From: Fidelibacterota bacterium
GTDB lineage: Bacteria; Marinisomatota; Marinisomatia; Marinisomatales; TCS56
Assembly: GCA_030634675.1 (NCBI GenBank)
Contig: DAOWAH010000127.1
Coordinates: forward strand, 1 to 5,528
Direction: 5' to 3'
Length of the DNA: 5,528 nucleotides
In this document: piece by piece, positions 1-5,528 of the stretch
How the letters are laid out: the number at the start of each line of letters is the position of its first letter
Numbering within the stretch: position 1 is the stretch's first letter
Notes under the pieces: model-generated
The model's database searches: none
What the model was told of the DNA's origin: nothing
Seen by the model: only the letters and a program-made list of their open reading frames with translations
Position numbers and translations under genes: made by a program

Positions 1-1329
1 ACCCCAGGCTTCGGCATCATCAGCGGTAAAAACGATCTGACCCATTGCACCGCCGGGACCCGCCGGCAGCCCTTTGGCCAGCGGAGTAAATCGGTCCTCA
101 TCTTTCGGATCAAGCATTGGGTGTAAAAGTTCATCCAGCCGCGCCGGCGCCACACGCAGGATTGCATCTTCTTTGGAAATACGCCCTTCACGATGCATTT
201 CAACAGCCATTCTAATAGCCGCCAGACCATTCCGCTTGCCGGTACGGGTCTGAAGCATCCACAGGGTACCGTCCTGAATGGTGAATTCAATATCCTGCAT
301 ATCGCGGTAATGCTCTTCCAGCTTGGTTCGGATGTCGTCTAACTGATTGTACAGGTTCGGCTTGAATTTTTCCAGTGATACCTTACCATGGCTTTCATCA
401 GTCCGGGTGGCTTCATTCAGTGGATTCGGCGTGCGAGTACCAGCCACCACATCTTCACCCTGGGCATTTTTAAGCCATTCGCCATAGAATATATTTTCGC
501 CTGTGGCTGGATTGCGGGTAAAAGCCACACCGGTGGCACTTTCATTGCCTAGATTTCCAAAAACCATAACCTGGACGTTAACCGCTGTTCCCCAATTCTC
601 GGGGATACCTTCTATTTTACGATAATTGATGGCCCGCCGACCGTTCCAGCTTTGGAACACGGCTTTAATACCGCCCCATAATTGAACATATGGATCGTCG
701 GGAAATTCCTGGCCCAGAACTCCCAATATTTTTGTCTTGAATTGATCAGCCATCAATTTCCAGTCATCGCCGGTCAGATCAACATCGGACTTATAACCCT
801 TGCTGGCTTTATAGTTATCCATGATTTTTTCAAGCTGATATCGGATTCCCTCACCGTCGACTGGTTCGATCCCGGCGGCTTTTTCCATTACAACATCTGA
901 ATACATCATGATCAGTCGCCGGTAGGCGTCATAAACGAATTGTGAATTCCCGGTTTTTTTGATTAATCCCGGGATGGTTTTAGAAGTTAATCCAATATTC
1001 AGTACCGTCTCCATCATGCCGGGCATGGAGGCGCGGGCACCGGAACGAACAGACAATAGCAGGGGATCATTCACAGCGCCAAACGATTTTCCCATCACCC
1101 GCTCAATTTTTCGCATTACTTCGTTTGCCTGACCATCCAATTCAGCCGGAAATTCACGCTCATTTTCATAATAGGCATTGCACACATCGGTGGTCAGCGT
1201 GAAACCCGGCGGCACCGGCATTCCCAGTTTGGTCATTTCCGCCAGGTTGGCGCCCTTGCCACCAAGAAGATTTTTCATATCGGCGGCACCGTCGGCTTCG
1301 CCATCACCAAAATAATACACGTATTTCAT
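1..1329 (-). CDS. ppdK: Pyruvate phosphate dikinase, N-terminal half (partial, cut by window start)
   Basis: PPDK interconverts pyruvate, ATP and phosphate with phosphoenolpyruvate, AMP and pyrophosphate in the cytoplasm, linking glycolysis and gluconeogenesis. The 443 visible codons are open throughout and cover the ATP-grasp nucleotide-binding part and the start of the swivelling phosphohistidine domain. Visible landmarks are GGKGANLAEM near residues 23-32, SVRSGARASMPGMMET at 93-108, and MQDIEFT...WMLQTRTGKR at 344-366. In the last, E348, Q360 and R362 match the ATP-site Glu, Gln and Arg known from Clostridium PPDK. GLPAGPGGAMGQIVF at 420-434 opens the phosphohistidine domain. The family is usually about 870-900 residues, so roughly half is missing, including the catalytic histidine and the PEP-binding barrel, which lie beyond base 1. 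The ATG at 1327-1329 is chosen because the family N-terminus (KYVYYFGDG) begins there and a GGAG lies 10 bases upstream. It is transcribed divergently from the glycosyltransferase. The related enzyme PEP synthase is less likely, given the PPDK-specific N-terminus. Confidence 0.97.
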   Translation of the reverse strand, partial: MKYVYYFGDGEADGAADMKNLLGGKGANLAEMTKLGMPVPPGFTLTTDVCNAYYENEREFPAELDGQANEVMRKIERVMGKSFGAVNDPLLLSVRSGARASMPGMMETVLNIGLTSKTIPGLIKKTGNSQFVYDAYRRLIMMYSDVVMEKAAGIEPVDGEGIRYQLEKIMDNYKASKGYKSDVDLTGDDWKLMADQFKTKILGVLGQEFPDDPYVQLWGGIKAVFQSWNGRRAINYRKIEGIPENWGTAVNVQVMVFGNLGNESATGVAFTRNPATGENIFYGEWLKNAQGEDVVAGTRTPNPLNEATRTDESHGKVSLEKFKPNLYNQLDDIRTKLEEHYRDMQDIEFTIQDGTLWMLQTRTGKRNGLAAIRMAVEMHREGRISKEDAILRVAPARLDELLHPMLDPKDEDRFTPLAKGLPAGPGGAMGQIVFTADDAEAWG

Positions 1330-1597: not shown

Positions 1598-3055
1598 ATG
1601 GATCGTGATTCCCGGAATATATTGCTAATAATTATTTTTGCTACATTATTCAAGATGCTATATGCCGCACCGCTTTATTTACTTGATGACGAAGCCTATT
1701 ATTGGGTCTGGAGTCGTAATTTATCGCTCTCATATTTCGATCATCCGCCTATGATAGCCATATTAATCAGGCTTTCAACGACATTTTTTGGGGATTCTTT
1801 TCTCGGTATTCGCGCACTGGGTGCAATTGCCACCGGCATCAGTATCTGGTTCGGCCTTGACTTAACCTATCGCATTTATCAGGATAAGAAAGTATTATGG
1901 AATGCCACCTGGTTATTCCTGCTGGCTCTGCCTTTCTTTGCTGCTGGAATAATTATGACACCGGATACGCCCATGATGCTGTTTTTAACCCTGGCGTTGT
2001 GGTCGTTTTACCGCGCCGCGTTTGAAATGAAAACTAAATATTGGTGGGTTAGCGGCATTTGTTTCGGTTTAGCTCTGTTATCCAAGTATACAGCAATCCT
2101 CTGGTTAGGAAGTGTGTTTCTACTGTTAGTTGTTGATCCCCATCTCCGGCACCAGTTACGCCGACCAACCCCCTGGCTGGCCGGAGCAATTACCCTACTA
2201 TTGTTTTCTCCGGTCATTTATTGGAATGCCGCTCATGACTGGGCTTCGTTCAAATTTCAACTGGGGCATGGCCTGGAACTAAAAAACCCGCGACCGTTGT
2301 TTTACCTTGGGGAATATTTTGCTGGGCAGGCTGGACTTATGACGCCAGGCATTTTTTTACTGATATTAGCCCTCTGGGGAAAGATGACCGCGAGCTGGAA
2401 AAAACTATCTGGTTCCGAAAGATTCTTATTGGTCTCCGGGTTAACACCCTTTCTGTTTTTCATGTATGCCGGTTCACGAACCCATGCTGAAGCCAACTGG
2501 CCGGCACTCACCTATCTAACCGGGATTATTATCGCTGCACGCTGGCATGCTAATGCCCGCGGCTGGCAAAAATGGATTAAAGGTATCAACTACAGTTTTC
2601 TGATTCTTTTTCTATTAATAATTATTGTGCAGGCGCATTTTAAGGTATTACCGCTTAATGGTAAAAATGATCCCACCAACCGTTATTATGGCTGGCCGGG
2701 TGCCCTTGATCAGATCGAACAACTTTGGCATGAATATCCGCAAGCGATGCCGGTAGGGAATAAATATCAGATTCAGAGCCAGATTGCCTATCGCTTTAAG
2801 ACAATTAGCACACCGGCTTTAAATATTGGTGGCCGATCAAACCATTTTGAATATTTTGATTACCAGCCCCTAATCGGCCGGGACATTCTAATTGTCAGCA
2901 GTGAACGGGAACCGCGACCGGCTAAATTTCAGGCGGCTTTTGATACGGTTAATTTTCTAAAGACAATAACGATTTACCGAAACAGTGAACCTGTTAAGAA
3001 GTTGCAAGTATACCTCGGTAACAATTACCACGCTAAAAATGGGCTCGACAAGTAA
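1598..3055 (+). CDS. Membrane glycosyltransferase, PMT/ArnT-like (GT39, PMT_2 type)
   Basis: This is a 485-residue polytopic inner-membrane protein, predicted to transfer a sugar from a polyprenyl-phosphate donor to a lipid, glycan or protein acceptor on the periplasmic side. A first hydrophobic segment (about 8-29) is followed by LLDDEAYYWVW at 28-38, whose acidic residues match the first-loop catalytic motif of the PMT/ArnT superfamily. Further family signatures are YFDHPPM at 46-52, MTPDTPMMLF at 120-129, GLALLSKYTAI at 157-167 and HAEANWPA at 296-303. Hydrophobic segments lie near 102-119, 123-140, 151-179, 193-209, 248-260, 276-291, 304-314 and 332-346. A soluble C-terminal part of about 135 residues follows. 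The length is normal for the family. No Shine-Dalgarno sequence precedes the ATG, but no later start would keep the first membrane segment and the acidic motif. The 3' end overlaps the sensor kinase gene by 17 bases, which indicates an operon. The donor and acceptor cannot be read from the sequence. Assignment to ArnT itself is not supported, because other lipid A genes are absent. Confidence 0.92.
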   Translation: MDRDSRNILLIIIFATLFKMLYAAPLYLLDDEAYYWVWSRNLSLSYFDHPPMIAILIRLSTTFFGDSFLGIRALGAIATGISIWFGLDLTYRIYQDKKVLWNATWLFLLALPFFAAGIIMTPDTPMMLFLTLALWSFYRAAFEMKTKYWWVSGICFGLALLSKYTAILWLGSVFLLLVVDPHLRHQLRRPTPWLAGAITLLLFSPVIYWNAAHDWASFKFQLGHGLELKNPRPLFYLGEYFAGQAGLMTPGIFLLILALWGKMTASWKKLSGSERFLLVSGLTPFLFFMYAGSRTHAEANWPALTYLTGIIIAARWHANARGWQKWIKGINYSFLILFLLIIIVQAHFKVLPLNGKNDPTNRYYGWPGALDQIEQLWHEYPQAMPVGNKYQIQSQIAYRFKTISTPALNIGGRSNHFEYFDYQPLIGRDILIVSSEREPRPAKFQAAFDTVNFLKTITIYRNSEPVKKLQVYLGNNYHAKNGLDK

Positions 3056-5528
3056 AATACTGCGGACAAACTTCTTAAGCCGTTTTGGTTTAGTCTTCGC
3101 AATTGGATTTTGTATTAATTGTTATCAGGCAGCATCTGATCAAATGTGGGTGATGTCTATGTTCACGGATATGCCCGAGTCTGATAAAAACCTTCTACCT
3201 GATCTGGATGATGCATATGGAGTTGTTTTCCGAGATATCAACAAAGATAATCAGCCGGATATTTATGTGGTACGCTTCCGTGATTTAAATCGCCTGTTTA
3301 TCAATCAGGGAAAAGACAGGCCTTTTATTGATCGTACAATTGAATCCGGACTTGGGGGTAATTTAGCTTCCCGGGGGCAGAAGAATCTGGAATTAGGGGC
3401 TTCTGCTGTGGATTTCGATGATGATGGTACACTGGATATTCTGATTGCCGGATGGGATCACACTACCCGGTTATTTAATGGTGAAGGTAATAACCGCTAT
3501 TCTGATATTACCGGAAAAACCGGTTTTGACCTGCCAAGCAGTGGCAATGCTGGTATTTGGGCCGATATTGATCTTGATGGCGACTTGGACCTTTTTATTA
3601 CTGACGAGCATCGAGAAAACCATTTATACATCCAGATTAAACCGGGACGCTTTGAAGAACGCGCGCAGGAATTTGGCATCGATGCGGAACAAATCAGCCA
3701 GGGGGCTGCTTTTGGTGATTTGGATAATGATGGTTACCCGGATCTTTACGTCTGCAACTGGTTCGCACCGGATTTGATTTATCGCAATATGGGTGGAATC
3801 GTTTTCCAGAGGATCAAGCTACCCCTACCGCATCTGACTGATCCACTACGTAGTAATGGTGTCTGGTTCGGCGATATAGACAACGACGCTGATTTGGACA
3901 TACTGGTTACTGATCGTCAACGAACCAGCCGCTTATACCGCAATGATATCGTTCCGGGTAACAGCGAGTGGAAATTCAGTGATATTACCGAACAGTCAGG
4001 TTTGCTTAATAATTATCCATCCTATTCCGGCCTTATAGCTGATTTTAATAATGATGGTTGGCAGGATATCTTCTTCACCAATATTGGTCCAAATCAATTC
4101 TTCCTGAATCAAGGTGGTAAAAAATTTGTATCGGTATACTTGCAAAATATTCCTAATGGTTCCCGTCTCCTTCATTATAGCACCGGTGCAGCCGTTGCGG
4201 ATTATGATAATGATGGCGACCTTGATCTTTTTATCTCTAATAAAGATACGGCATCAACATTTTATATAAATCCACTGAATGGTGGAAAATTTCTCCGCTT
4301 CCGCGTTATTGGCGGAAAAAGTAATCGCGATGGAATTGGCACAAAAATCCGATTGTATCATCAATTTGCCGATGATAGCGCTTTGGAGTTAGCCGGTTAC
4401 CGTGAATTAAGCGCTGGTCAGGGTTATCTTTCCGTTGGTGAAAACATCGCTCATTTTGGTGTTGAGCCACAAGGTTCTTATCGCGCTGAAGTACGTTTTC
4501 CATCAGGAAAAGAAGTGGTCTTAAACAATCTTGTTGCAGGGCAAGAACTGTTGGTCGCGGAACATAACTCCCTAGTTATGCTTGCATTCGGGATGCATAA
4601 ATCAATTTCAAAAATGCTGGCACGGCCAGAACTCCCTGTCAATTTAATCCTGTTACTACTACTCGCCAGTACGCTTGGTGGCTATACGAATGTAGCTTTG
4701 CGTCGCTATACCTGGTCAACTCGGCAAGCAACAGGTCTGGTTGCGGGAATCCTGTTATTTTTGTTCATTGGTTTCATCTTTGTACCTGAATATGGTTTAC
4801 GCGCTGTTTTGTGGGGACAATTAGTACTATTGCTTATCATCATCGGATCAATCACCGGTTTTTCAGAACGCATTCTTCAACTCTCAGCCAAGCGTTACGG
4901 ATATCGCCCGGTTTTACGAAAATTTTCCGAAAAATTAATATTTATCCGTGACAATCAGGATCTTTATCAGCAATTAGTTGATACAGTTCACAAAACAATG
5001 GAAACCAGATTTTGTGCACTGTATCAAATATCAGATCGAACGGCAAGATCGATTTCTTCCGCTGGCAAGCTTGCCAAGCACCCACCTGTCTTATATTTAA
5101 GTGACAATCAGTATGATTTTATTAAACATGATTCAATTATTGAAGCGGATCAAATAGAAATATATTTTAATTCTCTCTATCTTGATGGCAGTCGTTTGAT
5201 CGTTTCACTCCGGTTAAAAAATGATCCCTTGGCGCTCTTAATCTTGGGAGAACGAAAAAACCGATTGGAGTATAAAGGCGATGATCATGATGTACTGGCC
5301 GTTCTGGCAGGACAAGCTGCCCTGGCCATCGAAAATAATCGCTTCATTGATGAAACCCGCACACTGGCAGAGCAAGTCAGTGAGGCTCGCACACGTGAAA
5401 AATATGTCGCCGAATTGGAGGAGAAAAACCAATCTTTGGAAAAATTATATCAGGATCTTAAGACCACACAATTGCAGTTAATCCAAAGTGAAAAAATGTC
5501 AAGCCTAGGGCAACTCGTAGCCGGAATA
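3039..5528 (+). CDS. FG-GAP propeller / ASPIC-UnbV / three-TM / GAF sensor histidine kinase (partial, open at window end)
   Basis: This single frame has 830 codons, no stop, and continues past the window. In order it shows: a signal peptide (1 to about 33; hydrophobic 16-27); seven FG-GAP/VCBS Ca-loop repeats at residues 66-401; an ASPIC/UnbV-like domain at about 427-508 ([39 protein letters not shown]); membrane segments at about 532-549, 565-583 and 588-608; a GAF-like domain at about 636-769 ending [17 protein letters not shown]; a charged coiled coil at about 770-818; and [14 protein letters not shown] at 817-830. The last is the start of a HisKA H-box, normally continued by AHEINNP. After signal-peptide cleavage, three membrane spans put the propeller outside and the GAF and kinase inside. 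Basic residues at 555-562 and 611-628 fit the positive-inside rule. The phospho-acceptor histidine and ATPase domain should lie downstream of 5528. The ATG at 3039 is preferred because later Met codons (36, 39, 41) would remove the signal peptide; no Shine-Dalgarno is visible. Its overlap with the glycosyltransferase suggests translational coupling. The ligand is unknown. Domain calls are by eye. Confidence 0.88.
   Translation, partial: [830 protein letters not shown]
3234..4241 (+). repeat. Seven FG-GAP/VCBS calcium-loop repeats (probable seven-bladed propeller)
   Basis: These are protein-level repeats inside the sensor kinase, each with a DxDxDGxxDL-type loop followed by a short beta strand. 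They start at residues 66 ([12 protein letters not shown]), 125 ([12 protein letters not shown]), 176 ([12 protein letters not shown]), 227 ([12 protein letters not shown]), 279 ([12 protein letters not shown]), 335 ([12 protein letters not shown]) and 388 ([12 protein letters not shown]). Spacing is 51-59 residues, which is normal for one propeller blade, and seven blades is the integrin-type number. Repeats 1 and 4 lack the usual loop glycine (N71 and A284). The acidic loops are expected to bind Ca2+. The DNA copies are diverged, so this is not a recent tandem duplication. Confidence 0.85.
4317..4562 (+). other. ASPIC/UnbV-like domain segment of the sensor kinase
   Basis: Residues 427-508 carry the hallmarks of the ASPIC/UnbV domain, which usually follows FG-GAP repeats in secreted proteins. 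They are an [10 protein letters not shown] opening, an [11 protein letters not shown] segment, the xHFGV motif, an RFPSGKEV strand close to the usual WPSG, and a final QELLVAE. A linker of about 23 residues joins it to the first membrane span, so it is the membrane-proximal outer domain. That position suits a module relaying the propeller state to the membrane; the relay role is inferred. Confidence 0.8.
5487..5528 (+). other. Start of HisKA H-box (histidine kinase dimerisation domain)
   Basis: Residues 817-830 read [14 protein letters not shown], preceded by the coiled-coil stretch [14 protein letters not shown]. This matches the widespread '[24 protein letters not shown]' entry into the phospho-acceptor helix of HisKA kinases. 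The window stops where AHE would follow, so the histidine itself is not seen. Confidence 0.85.

Follow-up and report, generated by a model that had tools for sequence, protein, structure and literature searches.

The stretch of DNA analyzed here, 5,528 nucleotides of Fidelibacterota contig DAOWAH010000127.1 (the window), ends inside a gene that raises a question: can a propeller like those of integrins and CRTAC1 serve as the input of a bacterial histidine kinase, and what would such a kinase control? A sequence-only reading of the window had proposed that one frame joins an FG-GAP propeller and an ASPIC/UnbV domain to three transmembrane (TM) spans, a GAF domain and a histidine kinase. The fusion was confirmed by the open frame, Pfam, loop motifs and hydropathy. 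Sequence comparison places it in a family of Calditrichota and Marinimicrobia that keeps its domain order and recurs with a regulator gene and an operon with their motifs. The gene product is probably the sensor kinase of a two-component system dedicated to the envelope, with an NtrC-type regulator as its partner and an operon for a lipoprotein and an outer-membrane protein (OMP) as its predicted target.

A propeller-ASPIC ectodomain in frame with a histidine kinase

The open reading frame (ORF) list contains a plus-strand frame of 830 codons without a stop that runs from ATG 3039 to the window end at 5528. GTG 2985 is an alternative, longer start of the same frame and is unlikely because the alignments with locus L002 and protein P0001 begin around ATG 3039. 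With that ATG as its start, the gene shares 17 nt with the end of the preceding gene (1598-3055), stop codon included. P0001 is a complete homologue, 93% identical to the window protein, and may represent the 90% cluster that contains the window protein itself. L002 is the closest locus, with the same gene order as the window and 94% identity over residues 1-455, after which its contig ends. A search for the kinase part in G012, the metagenome-assembled genome (MAG) of the closest relative, found none.

Pfam analysis of the window protein returned FG-GAP_3 (E 2.5e-37, 127.7 bits, cut-off 26.9) followed by UnbV_ASPIC (E 2.7e-9, 37.2 bits, cut-off 23.4), an order that defines FG-GAP/ASPIC (CRTAC1-type) proteins, and then GAF_3 (E 1.9e-6, 28.7 bits, cut-off 27). 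Seven D-x-[DN]-x-D-xxx-D loops start at residues 66, 125, 176, 227, 279, 335 and 388 of the translation, and loops 1 and 5 lack the G of DxDxDG. Hydropathy identifies three hydrophobic spans at residues ~536-554, 564-582 and 590-613. In the features below, all on the plus strand, loops are placed by the motif in the translation and conservation among relatives, and TM spans by hydropathy, charges and helices in the model.

3039..5528, +, 5' part of the sensor histidine kinase gene, running off the window (open frame, domains, P0001)
3213..4265, +, seven-bladed FG-GAP propeller (limits approximate, from the P0001 model)
3234..3260, +, calcium-type loop 1 (DINKDNQPD)
3411..3437, +, calcium-type loop 2 (DFDDDGTLD)
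3564..3590, +, calcium-type loop 3 (DIDLDGDLD)
3717..3743, +, calcium-type loop 4 (DLDNDGYPD)
3873..3899, +, calcium-type loop 5 (DIDNDADLD)
4041..4067, +, calcium-type loop 6 (DFNNDGWQD)
4200..4226, +, calcium-type loop 7 (DYDNDGDLD)
4332..4550, +, ASPIC/UnbV domain (PF07593), residues 432-504 (Pfam)
4644..4700, +, TM span 1
4728..4784, +, TM span 2
4806..4877, +, TM span 3
4956..5336, +, GAF domain (PF13492), residues 640-766 (Pfam)
5352..5483, +, helical linker to the kinase core (sequence; model confidence low here)
5484..5528, +, start of the HisKA helix, with the histidine at the second codon past the window (alignment with P0001 and relatives)

The FG-GAP/ASPIC part matches CRTAC1 (cartilage acidic protein 1, PDB 9etn), an extracellular animal protein, both in sequence and in fold. 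The propeller-ASPIC unit is common to the two proteins, but in the window protein it is tied to TM spans, a GAF domain and a kinase. The propeller of the integrin alpha headpiece is a weaker match than CRTAC1, and integrin has neither the ASPIC domain nor a kinase.

The proposed H-box is in frame only as its first half (QSEKMSSLGQLVAGI), whose counterpart in P0001 reads ...LVAGIAHELNNP. The last 15 codons of the window form the start of the HisKA helix and P0001 continues with AHELNNP, so the phospho-acceptor histidine is the second codon past 5528, just outside the window. The ATPase domain expected downstream is present in relatives: HATPase_c lies in frame in 9/9 scanned and in 18 of the 19 members of alignment A3, which also has ASPIC in 18, HisKA in 17 and GAF_3 in 16. 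The one row without HATPase_c is P0003, a 775-aa fragment, and the His, N and G boxes are invariant in all 18 complete rows. HisKA with its histidine, followed by HATPase_c in the same frame, identifies the relatives as histidine kinases; the window holds the HisKA start only.

The fusion family is found in two phyla

Scanning genome contigs left 79 loci, of which L001-L016 are close relatives. The other 63 match the FG-GAP/ASPIC part and at most little beyond it, and kinases were not scanned for there. Thirteen of the 16 close relatives run through the kinase to a stop; the contig of L010 ends inside HATPase_c, and L002 and L015 are cut earlier. The A4 profile, which spans the TM-GAF junction, gave near full-length matches in 14/245 genomes of Marinimicrobia (the phylum of L001) and 31/40 of Calditrichota (the phylum of L005), bearing out the expectation of homologues in several genomes. 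The raw tallies of 25/245 and 38/40 include other GAF kinases and partial matches. The count of 31/40 is probably too low because G262 and G270, which have no match, carry the regulator and operon right where a contig breaks off. Protein searches returned 7 and 14 matches, all with FG-GAP and ASPIC and all except the fragment P0003 with HATPase_c. One of these proteins, P0010 from Caldithrix abyssi DSM 13497, is annotated as an integral membrane sensor signal transduction histidine kinase. Annotations of other members read VCBS repeat-containing, FG-GAP-like or GHKL domain protein. The working set for the gene neighborhood consisted of 48 distinct loci (L001-L016, L114-L133, L139-L149 and L093), with the kinase gene end missing in L002, L010, L015 and L143.

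Searches of four other phyla (395, 84, 294 and 297 genomes) at E ≤1e-20 found no family member, their two matches being L134 and L135. This absence is weak evidence because the searches had no positive control inside and three of them scored no more than 6 or 8 candidates in each genome. Ten further genomes gave matches in two, both to other kinases. The GAF kinases outside the two phyla (L134, L135, L136 and L138) were rejected as family members since they have no FG-GAP or ASPIC match; in L135:394-3270 (-) and L136:342-3206 (+), which are sensor kinases of another type, a PDZ domain at the N terminus precedes GAF and PAS. Among the listings and passages of open PMC texts on UnbV or FG-GAP with histidine kinase and on Caldithrix signalling, none described the system, a search that did not cover subscription journals and preprints.

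Two variant kinases, L133 (3780-7634, -; 1285 aa) and L137 (863-4795, -; 1311 aa), have a PSII_BNR (YCF48-like) stretch before FG-GAP, ASPIC and HATPase_c. The ASPIC match of L137, at 21.6 bits, is below the 23.4 cut-off, and a regulator gene follows L133. The records of L004 and L014 are titled Deltaproteobacteria and Caldisericaceae, titles that look outdated, as their genomes are grouped in the phylum of L005; L014 was placed in G010 by handle and L004 in G280 by matching contig position.

The kinase gene is followed by an NtrC-type regulator

A regulator gene lies directly 3' of the kinase in 41 of the 44 loci with a complete kinase end, and the two genes often overlap by a few bases. REC, Sigma54_activat and HTH_8 domains were detected in 4/4 regulators scanned, which makes them NtrC-type. 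D54 is invariant in 11 aligned regulators, 10 of which have GAFTGA as their sigma-54 contact loop. The sigma-54 domain PF04552 was detected in 12/12 genomes tested. Kinase and regulator distances are correlated (r 0.917; 27 pairs; 0/2000 permutations), a result also expected because linked genes share common descent. The regulator is a separate gene: Pfam analysis at E ≤1e-3 found neither a receiver nor a helix-turn-helix (HTH) domain in the kinase polypeptides of the 19 A3 members.

The regulator gene is followed by a lipoprotein/OMP operon

Where a regulator has 3 kb or more of sequence behind it (29 loci), an OMP gene follows in 27. The lipoprotein gene was recognized by its C-Y-T lipobox in 26 of these 27 loci and by eye in the other (L008). 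The seven lipoproteins examined have a Tyr/Trp-rich middle and an Arg/Lys/Ser-rich tail, and no family match was found among those scanned. Unusual lipoproteins of this composition are seen in L008, L001, L003, L012, L124, L127, L130 and L132.

Both the BamG and the PorV_fam model match the predicted target OMPs in 20/20 cases; in the member taken as an example, the scores are below the cut-offs (PorV_fam 57.2 of 90 bits, BamG 48.9 of 250). PF03349 (OMPP1/FadL/TodX) was detected in 3/4 scanned, the miss being a split ORF of L001. A model of the target OMP (pLDDT 88) matches the fold of BamG, of the Bacteroides BAM machinery, first and FadL next. The predicted target resembles BamG, PorV and FadL by these models and fold but differs in its pairing with the lipoprotein.

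The operon lies away from the regulator and kinase in the DNA fetched from G255, G009, G010, G280 and G281, and in all five both motifs described below are kept. Part of the Calditrichota loci have a small gene with DYNGTLA or DFNGTLA between regulator and lipoprotein (L120:11187-11621, L127:11177-11647, L128:11196-11666 and others), which we take to be HAD-like. The genome that carries operon L166 is the one whose propeller kinase, L129, has no adjoining regulator, a possible rewiring.

A candidate promoter and a palindrome precede the operon

The pattern TGG[CT][AC][CT]N5TTG, with its TGG-N8-TTG core at fixed spacing, was present no more than 150 bp from the start of 27/32 lipoprotein genes (31 loci), compared to 0.24 expected from first-order Markov resampling. 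Controls with the spacing wrong by -2, -1, +1 or +2 gave 0/32, and the strict pattern preceded 3/334 other ORFs of the same loci. A looser form was found before 31/32 lipoprotein genes versus 11/334 other ORFs; its match in L009 is probably not the real site, and L007 and L009 have a better site before a leader ORF. An earlier scan of 450 bases behind the regulator in a second set gave 6/16 strict and 10/16 relaxed matches. The scan was re-anchored on the lipoprotein gene because in several loci another gene separates it from the regulator, and TGGC in the strict pattern was relaxed to TGG[CT] on the re-anchored loci before the last ten genes were fetched. These ten Marinimicrobia genes, some of them close relatives, all have the fixed pattern (10/10; expected 0.07). 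The sigma-54 consensus consists of a -24 GG and a -12 GC element at fixed spacing, and the motif resembles this -24/-12 element except for the -12 C, which most of the listed sites lack.

When 11 or more of 14 positions must match, TGTTAAC-N3-GTTAACA is present in 18/32 upstream regions (expected 0.93), whereas spacers of 0-2 and 4-8 gave 0-4 of 32. In 11 measured cases, which include one with a second copy at 114 and L139 with two promoter candidates, the palindrome start lies 104-139 bp upstream of the promoter motif. A general inverted-repeat scan with 6-bp arms had weak excesses at several spacings. Genome-wide, TGTNAACNNNGTTNACA was found in 7/10 Calditrichota genomes, at one place each and always before the lipoprotein operon, and its reversed control in 1/10. 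TGYAWACNNNGTWTRCA was found in 4/11 Marinimicrobia genomes, at one place each between regulator and lipoprotein, and its control in 0/11. The 17-bp palindrome was derived from the regions where it was first counted, and the independent part of this result is the whole-genome uniqueness and the unlinked operons. This association of motifs and operon, which holds independently of gene order, is the strongest argument for assigning the operon to the regulator, with binding itself as a prediction.

Discussion

In the proposed mechanism, the propeller and ASPIC domain would be periplasmic and held by calcium, with a ligand or envelope component as their binding partner. The signal would pass through the three TM helices to the GAF domain, the helical linker and the kinase. 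The phosphorylated regulator would bind the palindrome as an enhancer and drive sigma-54 transcription of the lipoprotein/OMP operon. The output would probably serve outer-membrane biogenesis, either in homeostasis or under stress. A more tentative extension is phylum-wide envelope surveillance, in which the integrin/CRTAC1-like calcium propeller could be the sensor of a single-target sigma-54 circuit for a BamG/PorV-like biogenesis or export unit, sensing that unit's state or cargo.

Several observations count against a dedicated circuit of this kind. The kinase core, regulator and operon all fall outside the window, which contains the sensor half only, and many of the genomes used are incomplete MAGs. 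No regulator adjoins the kinase in L004, L006 and L129, the L001 regulator reads GAFTDA, and in L016 and L121 the regulator is not followed by the operon. A stricter canonical sigma-54 pattern gave 0/16 in the 450 bases behind the regulator, and no more than 8 of the 31 listed sites retain the -12 C of the consensus. The exact palindrome was not found in 10/21 genomes. Two of the seven unlinked operons, L168 and L171, lack both motifs, and at L166:996-2360 the operon stands behind another kinase-regulator-like pair. The genome of L168 carries the variant kinase L133.

The pair in L166, the gene order kept within two phyla and a kinase-regulator correlation that shared descent would also produce are what one would see if kinase and regulator were a conserved pair, the operon were regulated otherwise and the neighborhood were inherited synteny. 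This explanation is quite improbable, as the five genomes with the operon elsewhere still keep both sites and contain the exact palindrome at no other place. The chance that the frame is an assembly join, or a chance read-through from a secreted ASPIC protein into a kinase, is practically nil. The window is a fragment, but the idea is refuted for the family by junction-spanning matches in both phyla, including one on the 4.98-Mb contig of G255, and by the same fusion in C. abyssi.

The sequence-only reading likened the design to the Bacteroides hybrid sensors, which the available excerpts of PMC3243724 describe as having two Reg_prop propellers and a YYY domain before the membrane and a histidine kinase inside. 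The likeness stands insofar as a large propeller and cap domain occupy the same place, and they are conserved; it fails in that the kinase is not a hybrid. The window family has other propeller and cap families, three TM spans and a separate NtrC-type regulator. Membership in the Bacteroides group was rejected on the lack of Reg_prop and Y_Y_Y among the Pfam matches (window, E ≤1; A3 members, E ≤1e-3) and of receiver and HTH domains. The lack of Reg_prop and Y_Y_Y fits the idea of a parallel design. A glycan sensor of the Bacteroides type, with the periplasmic propeller and ASPIC domain binding an oligosaccharide and controlling its uptake through the FadL/PorV-like protein as the channel, is unlikely. 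It would explain the shared position of propeller and cap (PMC3243724, excerpts) and the FadL-type fold matches of the target OMP. However, BamG ranks first by fold, the kinase lacks the hybrid form, and no glycan-degradation genes were recognized adjoining it in flanks that were not annotated systematically. No result here points to a polysaccharide as ligand.

The dedicated envelope sensor would be a two-component system of known kind, new in its type of sensor ectodomain and its narrow predicted target. The ZraS core is the best kinase fold match and the regulators match the AtoC and ZraR models. All of these model scores fall far short of the curated cut-offs, with P0001 at 143.6 of 479 bits for ZraS (NCBIfam PRK10364) and 179.6 of 646 for AtoS. 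P0001 is not a ZraS equivalog, and ZraS/ZraR and AtoS/AtoC differ from the propeller kinase family in ectodomain and target. With this family, the inputs of bacterial histidine kinases come to include an ectodomain resembling integrin and CRTAC1, and a circuit of sensor, regulator, enhancer, promoter and target can be predicted almost in full. The poorly understood ASPIC/UnbV domain would gain a functional readout. C. abyssi DSM 13497 is cultured and G255 has the exact palindrome at one place, and the circuit is therefore directly testable.

Neighboring genes in the window

1-1329, -, pyruvate, phosphate dikinase gene cut by the window edge (N-terminal half present)
1598-3055, +, PMT_2-type glycosyltransferase gene, upstream of the kinase gene

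A role for the PMT_2 neighbor was rejected: a phmmer homologue (E ≤1e-10) lies upstream of the kinase in L001 and L002 only, among 48 loci of which many carry little upstream DNA. The pyruvate, phosphate dikinase gene is complete in L002 (900 aa) and is ordinary.
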